From Haloplanus natans DSM 17983 (GTDB lineage: Archaea > Halobacteriota > Halobacteria > Halobacteriales > Haloferacaceae), in NCBI RefSeq assembly GCF_000427685.1, contig NZ_KE386573.1, positions 2,278,938 to 2,342,937 on the forward strand: 64,000 nucleotides of DNA, given 5' to 3'. The notes under the pieces were generated by a model. That model ran no database searches. It had not been told where the DNA came from and saw nothing but the letters and a program-made list of their open reading frames with translations. Shown one piece after another: positions 2,746 through 50,682 of the stretch. Both the position numbers and the translations under genes were made by a program. How positions within the stretch are numbered: position 1 is the first letter of the stretch; each line of letters begins with the position of its first letter.

Positions 2746-3609
2746 ATGAGTCGTTCCGTGGGGGTCGTGATCCCCGCGTACCGCCCGGACGTCGACCGCC
2801 TCGGGGCGTACGTCCGTGCCCTCCGGACCGTCCTCGACCCCGAGGAGATCCGCGTCGAACTCGACAGCGAGGGACGCAGTCCCTCGGGCAACCGGACACA
2901 GTCCGGTGACAGTCGGCCGGAGGCCGACGACAGCGTGAAGCCACGCTCCACGGGCAGCGAGGCGTCGGTCCGCGACCGAATCGCCGACCTCCCCGTCACG
3001 CTCAACGAAGCGTCGAGCCGTCGGGGCAAGGGGGCGGCGATCACCGCCGGGTTCGAGGCGCTGTCGGCCGAGGTCGACGTGTTGGCCTTCGCCGACGCCG
3101 ACGGCAGTACGCCCGCGCCCTCCATCGCGGACGTGGTTCGGCCGGTCGTCGCCGGCGAGGCCGACCTCGCCGCCGGGTCGCGTCGCCATCCCGACGCGAC
3201 CGTCGAGTCCCACCAGACGGTCGCCCGCCGCCACCTCGGCGACGGCTTCGCGTGGCTGGCCCGGCGCCTCCTCGACGTACATCTCTACGACTACCAGTGT
3301 GGGGCGAAGGCGCTGACGGCCGAGGCGTGGGAGTTGACTCGCCCCCACCTCCACGAACCCGGCTTCGCGTGGGACATCGAACTCCTCGCCGTCGCGGACG
3401 CGGTCGGCTGTCGGATCGTCGAGGTGCCCGTCGTCTGGGAGGATCGACCCGAATCCACGGTGTCACCCGTGCGAACGACCTTTCGGCTCGCGCGTGGGCT
3501 GGTCGTCTCCAGACACCGGGCGAAGCTCATCCGGGACGACCGGCTTCACTCGCTGCTCGACCGCCCGCGGGAATCGACATCCGCCCTCGTCGAGCGGGAG
3601 CACCGATGA
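2746..3609 (+). CDS. GT2 family glycosyltransferase (dolichol-phosphate mannosyl/glucosyltransferase-like)
   Basis: A 287-residue GT-A fold transferase expected to move a sugar from a nucleotide-sugar to a polyprenyl phosphate at the cytoplasmic membrane face. Visible features: the N-terminal VVIPAYRPD strand, RRGKGAAITAGF around residues 92-103, the DADGS metal motif at 117-121, and a C-terminal TTFRLARG typical of DPM1-like enzymes. Start: a TTTTTTAT box at about 2715-2721 lies 28 nt before ATG 2746 (leaderless). The stop overlaps the gtrA start by 4 bp, so the two are translationally coupled. Odd: residues about 42-68 (EGRSPSGNRTQ...) are encoded by four consecutive hairpins and look like an in-frame insertion between the RVELD strand and the VRDRIADLPVTL segment. 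Confidence 0.88.
   Translation: MSRSVGVVIPAYRPDVDRLGAYVRALRTVLDPEEIRVELDSEGRSPSGNRTQSGDSRPEADDSVKPRSTGSEASVRDRIADLPVTLNEASSRRGKGAAITAGFEALSAEVDVLAFADADGSTPAPSIADVVRPVVAGEADLAAGSRRHPDATVESHQTVARRHLGDGFAWLARRLLDVHLYDYQCGAKALTAEAWELTRPHLHEPGFAWDIELLAVADAVGCRIVEVPVVWEDRPESTVSPVRTTFRLARGLVVSRHRAKLIRDDRLHSLLDRPRESTSALVEREHR
2869..2947 (+). repeat. Four tandem micro-hairpins inside the GT2 coding region
   Basis: Four consecutive perfect inverted repeats: 2869-2885 (GAGGGAC gca GTCCCTC), 2891-2907 (ACCGGAC aca GTCCGGT), 2912-2928 (GTCGGCC gga GGCCGAC) and 2932-2947 (AGCGTG aagc CACGCT). They start every 20-22 nt, have 6-7 bp stems, 3-4 nt loops and unrelated stem sequences. The reading frame stays open. 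The encoded residues are polar and look like disordered linker. Confidence 0.85.
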
Positions 3610-49515: not shown

Positions 49516-50682
49516 ATGACAGGCGTACGTGTCGCCGGCGTCGGACTGACGCATTTCGGGCGACATCCGGAGCGGACCGGGCGCGATCTGTTCGGGGAGG
49601 CCGCCCTCACTGCTCGCGAGGAGTCGGGCGTACCACCCGAGGACATCGAGTCGATCAACTACGGGAACTTCATGGGGGCGCTGGCGGAGCGACAGGGTCA
49701 CCAAGCGCCGCTCATGGCCGAGATGGCCGGATTGCAGTGCCCGGCGACGCGGTACGAGGAGGCGTGTGCCTCCGCCGGCGTCGCCGTCCGCGAGGCGGTC
49801 CGGACCGTCCGCTCCGGCGAGGCCGACGTGATGCTCGCCGGCGGCTGTGAGCGGATGACCAACCTCTCGACGGCGGACGTGACCGAGGGGTTGGCGACCG
49901 CCGCGGACGAACTCTACGAGATCCGGGCGGGGATGACCTTCCCCGGCGCTTACGCCCTGATGGAGCGGGCGTACTTCGAGGGGTTCGGCGGGTCGCGCGA
50001 GGACCTCGCGCACATCGCGGTGAAAAACCACGACAACGCCCTCCCCAACGAGTACGCGCAGTTCCACCGCGCCATCACCGTCGACGAAGTGCTCGACGCG
50101 CCGATGGTTTCCGATCCAGTTGGCCTGCTCGATGCCTGCCCCGTCACCGACGGCGCGAGCGCCCTCGTCCTCGTCAGCGACGAGTACGCCGAGGCCGAGG
50201 GCCTCGACGCCCCGGTGTCGATCACCGGCAGCGGGCAGGGCGGGGACAACCTCGCGCTCCACGACCGGGAACATCTCGCGGTGACGCCGGCGACGGAGCG
50301 CGCGGCCGCCGAGGCCTACGACGACGCCGGCTGTTCGGCCGACGACGTGGACGTAGTCGAGGTTCACGACTGTTTCACCATCGCGGAGGTGCTCGCCGTC
50401 GAGGGGCTGGGCTTCTACGAGAACGGCGACGGCGTCGGCGCCGCGCGGCGCGGCGAGACGACGGCGACGGGCGAACTGCCGGTGAACCTCTCGGGCGGAC
50501 TGAAAGCCAAGGGTCACCCCGTCGGCGCGACGGGAGGGAGTCAGATCGCGGAGATGACGCGTCTCCTCCGGGGCGACCACCCGAACAGCGACTACGTCGA
50601 GGACGCGACCCTCGGTGTCACGCACAACGCGGGCGGGACCGTCGCGAGCGCGGTCGTTCACGTCCTGGAGGTGGATCGATGA
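49516..50682 (+). CDS. Thiolase family protein (SCPx-type)
   Basis: 388 residues. Nucleophile Cys in RYEEACASAGVAVREAV (about residue 90), the other catalytic residues in AKGHPVGATGGSQIAEM (GHPxGATG) and the final THNAGGTVASAVVHVLE (GG...). It belongs to the archaeal thiolase family that pairs with a DUF35 protein; in other archaea this pair works with HMG-CoA synthase in acetoacetyl-CoA channelling. GTCTTTATC box about 30 nt before ATG 49516. Its stop overlaps the DUF35 start by 4 bp. Confidence 0.9.
   Translation: MTGVRVAGVGLTHFGRHPERTGRDLFGEAALTAREESGVPPEDIESINYGNFMGALAERQGHQAPLMAEMAGLQCPATRYEEACASAGVAVREAVRTVRSGEADVMLAGGCERMTNLSTADVTEGLATAADELYEIRAGMTFPGAYALMERAYFEGFGGSREDLAHIAVKNHDNALPNEYAQFHRAITVDEVLDAPMVSDPVGLLDACPVTDGASALVLVSDEYAEAEGLDAPVSITGSGQGGDNLALHDREHLAVTPATERAAAEAYDDAGCSADDVDVVEVHDCFTIAEVLAVEGLGFYENGDGVGAARRGETTATGELPVNLSGGLKAKGHPVGATGGSQIAEMTRLLRGDHPNSDYVEDATLGVTHNAGGTVASAVVHVLEVDR

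Follow-up and report, generated by a model that had tools for sequence, protein, structure and literature searches.

The window, that is, the whole 64,000-nucleotide stretch of Haloplanus natans DNA that was analysed, carries a glycosyltransferase gene into which a run of four hairpins is inserted in frame. The host gene and the parts of the insertion are as follows.

2746..3609, plus strand: host gene, a GT2 (dolichol-phosphate-mannose-synthase-like) glycosyltransferase of 287 aa, start ATG at 2746
2863..2865, plus strand: GAC (Asp40), the target codon directly 5′ of the insertion; the insertion point is equally placed in other genes
2866..2952, plus strand: inserted segment, a net gain of 87 nt over orthologues, missing from the 11 congeneric and from all family orthologues
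2866-2955, plus strand: alternative extent of the inserted segment, 90 nt, assuming the loss of one native codon
2866..2910, plus strand: complete 45-nt unit AG-A1-GGCA-B1-GAC (match to covariance model R1 at 2865-2910, 69.4 bits)
2868..2886, plus strand: A1 hairpin, CGAGGGAC-GCA-GTCCCTCG
2887..2890, plus strand: A-B linker GGCA, the commonest A-B linker of the family (17 of 27 links)
2891..2907, plus strand: B1 hairpin, ACCGGAC-ACA-GTCCGGT
2911..2931, plus strand: second B half-unit of 21 nt, the B2 hairpin GTCGGCC-GGA-GGCCGAC (2912-2928) followed by GAC
2934..2952, plus strand: A2 hairpin, CGTGAAGC-CAC-GCTCCACG, 8 bp with one A.C mismatch, followed by GGCA (2953-2956)

The product of the host gene was assigned to PF00535 by Pfam and gave a profile match to DPMS 5mlz (E 2.7e-10). 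The reading frame stays open across the insert. Comparison with the congeneric GT2 orthologues by translation showed that residues 41/42-70 of the window glycosyltransferase are missing from all 11; these proteins read RVELD-AAE-PSVRDRI, and the window protein is 29 residues longer at that point. The sequence-only reading had taken the segment for a likely insertion and proposed an alignment of orthologues as the check; the segment proved to be missing from the 11 congeneric and 80 named orthologues, and no family match was found at or near the glycosyltransferase gene in the 80 named relatives (294,962 bases). In the AF2 (AlphaFold2) model, the insert falls in the loop that joins strand 34-40 to helix 72-80 and is disordered (residues 46-68, pLDDT<50); between strand 2 and helix 2 it is probably a neutral disordered linker.

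Three hairpins of the insert are perfect and have 3-nt loops, at 2868-2886 (8 bp, loop GCA), 2891-2907 (7 bp, ACA) and 2912-2928 (7 bp, GGA), and the four hairpins start at 2868, 2891, 2912 and 2934, in steps of 23, 21 and 22 nt. The four in-frame hairpins first reported from the letters alone were thus confirmed, the last of them in a corrected register: the hairpin described at 2932-2947 (6 bp, loop AAGC) exists but is incidental, and the homologous one is 2934-2952. This register was fixed from family members such as CGTGGAGC-ACG-GCTCCACG, and a weak covariance-model match covers 2931-2976 (29.8 bits). The insert comprises a complete unit of 45 nt and two additional half-units, a B of 21 nt and an A of 24 nt, giving the hairpin order A-B-B-A rather than a clean two-unit order. 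When the insert peptide was recoded synonymously, using the codon usage of the glycosyltransferase gene and its relatives, none of 20,000 recodings contained four hairpins (maximum 3), and the 64-kb window holds only one 4-hairpin chain; together these results exclude a chance origin. A three-hairpin chain with 6-7 bp stems at 50170-50228 of the window was considered as a family member, but it gave no covariance-model match and is probably due to chance.

Searched by blastn with the window insert, 12 congeneric genomes each proved to contain many copies. All are built alike: (GA)CAG is followed by hairpin A (8 bp, 3-nt loop), the linker GGCA, hairpin B (a 7-bp stem, again with a 3-nt loop) and GAC(AG), and their arrays repeat with a 45-nt period. 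The stems of the window insert, earlier regarded as unrelated, fall into two hairpin types, A and B, of which they are variants joined by the linkers GGCA or GACA(G), and the proposed search for the same geometry elsewhere found it in many other genes. A second subfamily combines an A part of 21 nt with a B part of 15 nt, for a total that is again 45 (L038). Covariance models (A2 and R1) built on the A-B dimer matched all 12 Haloplanus genomes, with 13-71 matches per genome, and 252 of 292 Halobacteria genomes in 69 of 77 genera. The family is spread class-wide: among about 100 other genomes of the phylum, no match fell outside Halobacteria (all 14 positives belong to that class). Most units are unlike one another, and the 92 distinct unit sequences argue against a single young master copy. 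Apart from tRNAs, no Rfam family was found in 10 array-bearing or related loci; phage records gave no family match, and IMG/VR gave two pattern matches, neither of them a perfect array.

Comparison of filled and empty sites revealed gains of fixed length at unrelated sites. In a thioredoxin-reductase-like gene, one locus is empty (L146, GAGTTCGAGGAC^GGCACC), a second has gained 45 nt (L145) and a third 90 nt (L156). Two gains occurred in the window's own genome, each of 45 nt: one in MsrB (L164 empty, L157 filled) and one in a class I tRNA synthetase of the W/Y type by Pfam (L185 empty, L187 filled). The Haloplanus DUF7097 gene documents nested re-insertion. It is without an insert in 4 genomes and holds one 45-nt unit in G001 and G003, while separate extra 45-nt gains, inside or before the first unit, are found in G002/G005/G009, in G009 and in G000; a 21-nt loss is seen in G000 as well, and a single unit remains in G010. 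The earlier argument against simple duplication holds to the extent that arrays grow by insertion of whole 45-nt units, but tandem duplication also contributes to some arrays. One of these is in MsrB of G006, with three tandem 45-nt units (L173), where the same site in G000 holds one unit of different sequence.

The triplet directly 5′ of the unit was GAC in 16 of 24 non-kinase cases and GCC, AGC, AAC, GGC or GAT in the rest, while the unit itself ended in GAC in 20 of the 24, even after AGC, GCC or GGC targets. Given that the GAC end is mostly kept, also after other targets, target-site duplication is not needed to explain the ends. At the MsrB and histidine-kinase sites, the 5′ arm repeats the native target, a match that a simple insertion model leaves unexplained; in the MsrB of the window's genome (L157, G000), hairpin A has a left arm with exactly the sequence of the native GCCGTCG 3′ of the insertion. 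This identity is not general. As a general rule, target copying (5′ arm equal to downstream target) was rejected, with 4.58 of 12 positions agreeing versus 4.36 in shuffled pairs when histidine kinases were excluded.

All 57 clearly coding arrays among 118 distinct arrays lie on one strand and in one GAC-anchored frame. As 43% of GAC sites would offer that frame (both strands, flanking coding DNA), one frame is strongly favoured; the few calls labelled as another strand or frame were mirror-frame artefacts or belonged to the second subfamily. The 79 units with both flanks coding measured 45 nt (78) or 51 nt (1), whereas repetitive intergenic units measured 49 or 53 nt, lengths not divisible by three; a length of 45 nt was seen in a few noncoding units. 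The surviving frame encodes a hydrophilic Ser/Gly/Arg/Asp peptide of the SEGRSPSGNRTQSGD type. We read the single frame and length as selection against the others, not as proof of a frame-aware mechanism.

Array-bearing genes encode histidine kinases (HATPase_c), MsrB (SelR), two class I tRNA synthetases, mercuric-reductase-like and other pyridine-nucleotide oxidoreductases, a DEAD_2 helicase and DUF7097; on plasmids, the annotations are histidine kinases and merA. The histidine-kinase N-box (NLFRN^SVEHG) is a hotspot (L039, L049, L104, L116 and others), where the 5′ end of the unit encodes SVEHG, so that the motif is restored past the insertion point and is present on both sides of the insert. 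Annotation is affected too: many haloarchaeal proteins hold such 15-residue inserts, notably in the N-box. Units are also found on a carrier, an IS1341-type (TnpB) transposon that is multi-copy in G005 and G006 (L421-L426 set) and has the unit 3′ of tnpB. Five of its copies contain the unit and a G002 copy (L426) does not, showing that the unit is a passenger of this transposon and not its end. The transposon flanks were matched in two other families (L270, L271), and TnpB transposons may carry units between genomes. An intergenic palindromic MITE-like element of about 330 bp, with the ends CTCGAAAGCCCC / GGGGCTTTCGAG, is present in five copies in the window's genome (L070:12280-12620, L125-L128), and each copy contains one 53-nt A-B unit. 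Other hairpin pairs, with GAA loops, adjoin Y1 transposase genes (L208:1997-2043, L213:1805-1847).

The fate of the stems after insertion could be followed in DUF7097. The A stem of its oldest unit is perfect in 2 species and carries 1, 2, 2 and 3 mispairs in 4 others, and none of the changes in these 4 of 6 species is compensatory; in this one gene, pairing was lost after insertion and not restored. Across distinct covariance-model matches, 54 were perfect and 37 had at least one mispair, and the 77 distinct high-scoring units contained 8 G.T, 5 A.C and 14 other mispairs against 1125 Watson-Crick pairs. The 8 G.T versus 5 A.C pairs amount to no clear G.U excess and hence give no clear sign of RNA-level pairing. 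The uncompensated decay, although from one gene, suggests that pairing matters for mobility and not for the host, as it seems to serve movement of the element.

Taken together, these results make it likely that the window segment is made up of copies of a mobile, non-autonomous DNA module of Halobacteria with a 45-nt unit. The unit, of the form RG, hairpin A, RGCA, hairpin B and GAC, would insert on the 3′ side of an NNC triplet (mostly GAC), adding 15 codons and duplicating no target sequence, and arrays grow by nested re-insertion of further 45-nt units. We propose that a single strand folded into both hairpins is the moving form of the unit or the intermediate through which it is copied, and the hairpins may be what an enzyme acting in trans recognises. 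Selection would then remove copies in other frames or lengths, and the encoded hydrophilic peptide would be tolerated in surface loops. A stronger version, which we put forward as speculative and doubtful, is a class-wide element tuned to 15 codons whose movement needs no HUH transposase and in which hairpin-templated copying re-perfects the palindromes every time. If true, re-perfecting would explain both the diverse, mostly perfect stems and their uncompensated decay after insertion, and would make the element a systematic source of new protein linkers.

How the module is mobilised bears on a related explanation, in which it is a terminal-only derivative of an IS605-type element (PATE) moved in trans by TnpA or a related Y1 enzyme. 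The two near-terminal palindromes, the missing inverted terminal repeats and target duplication, the short motif beside the insertion and the unit carried by the TnpB transposon are consistent with it, and haloarchaeal 52-bp terminal-only forms may be mobilised (PMC3119063). However, TnpA presence is uncorrelated with the element: IS200/IS605 TnpA (PF01797) is absent from the unit-rich genomes G024, G063, G065, G068, G018, G212, G216 and G003, while in G016 TnpA is matched 10 times and the unit not at all. Moreover, no A/B hairpins were seen at the IS ends compared in the genus, either at 30 Y1 loci with the covariance models or among the 18 inspected, in a comparison that covered Y1 loci and a minority of the TnpB element ends. 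TnpA as the mobiliser is accordingly unsupported by linkage, by ends or by presence across the 292 genomes, and we regard this explanation as possible but rather unlikely.

Other explanations were also weighed. If the acidic or hydrophilic peptide were itself selected as a linker that benefits halophilic proteins, with the DNA hairpins incidental, the single frame, the disordered surface loop in the window protein and the repeated use of the histidine-kinase N-box would follow; but the perfect palindromes, the fixed 45-nt gains and the intergenic copies of other lengths would be left unexplained, presence or absence differs between congeners, and the recoding result also speaks against it, which makes it improbable. 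Hairpins selected in the mRNA to tune translation or mRNA decay would fit the strong two-sided changes in the stems (79 cells versus 27 in shuffles, in aligned units that were pre-selected for pairing), but neither the absence of a clear G.U excess, nor the uncompensated decay in orthologues, nor the unrelated host genes and positions, intergenic copies and absence of an Rfam family in the 10 loci agree with such a role, and we consider it very unlikely. Finally, palindromes might be born locally at each site by snap-back template switching, as the left arm of hairpin A at the MsrB and histidine-kinase sites equals the native target and the right arm its complement. This is contradicted by the B hairpin, linkers and lengths common to unrelated genes and genera, and outside histidine kinases the 5′ end matches the downstream target no better than in shuffled pairs; as a full account, snap-back is extremely unlikely, while it could contribute to stem diversity.

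The mobile module can be placed among several known systems. Coding palindromes have been described as Rickettsia palindromic elements (RPEs), in Wolbachia, in Methanocaldococcus jannaschii and as PARCEL (PMC2229807, PMC2996958), and the conceptual parallel with Rickettsia drawn in the sequence-only reading holds: like RPEs and the Wolbachia and M. jannaschii palindromes, the haloarchaeal element forms in-frame palindromes missing from orthologues, in unrelated and often conserved genes, with intergenic copies and a tolerated peptide. RPEs proper are Rickettsia elements of 105-146 bp with one long stem-loop (PMC2229807) and terminal inverted repeats, whereas the haloarchaeal unit measures 45 nt, has two hairpins of 7-8 bp, forms tandem nested arrays and is found throughout an archaeal class, in Halobacteria only. 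PARCEL, known from bacteria and eukaryotic microbes, has a repeat of 25 aa (75 nt) whose palindromes are imperfect (PMC2996958); it shares tandem palindromic coding repeats with a fixed codon period, but the haloarchaeal unit is 15 aa (45 nt) and its hairpins are mostly perfect. REP/BIME elements with RAYT resemble the module in their small hairpins, conserved short motif at the foot and mosaic arrays. In BIMEs, however, REPs alternate in orientation and are extragenic (PMC2817692), and GTAG is the motif, while the haloarchaeal arrays alternate two different hairpins in a single orientation, mostly inside genes, with GGCA/GACA linkers and no linked RAYT or other Y1 gene. PATEs of Haloquadratum have near-terminal palindromes, no target duplication and strain-specific insertions despite nearly all TnpA genes being broken (PMC3119063). 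Our element is likewise transposase-free, with near-terminal palindromes, no ITR, no target duplication, motif-adjacent insertion as in terminal-only IS200/IS605 derivatives, and mobility without intact TnpA, but its units are mainly intragenic, in frame and exactly 45 nt, and no likeness to local IS605 ends was found.

Although coding palindromes are already known, the open-access text searched gave no published description of the haloarchaeal element, a class-wide archaeal form in which the unit has 45 nt and two hairpins and the arrays are nested. The module fits the reading frame, enters conserved enzymes and kinases and expands into arrays, and with Haloferax and other tractable hosts within its range, movement of transposase-free palindromes becomes directly testable. 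It is best read as a non-autonomous coding palindromic element comparable to RPEs and to terminal-only PATEs, and it adds a class-wide archaeal case to the protein-coding mobile palindromes, which until now were known mainly from Rickettsia and a few others.
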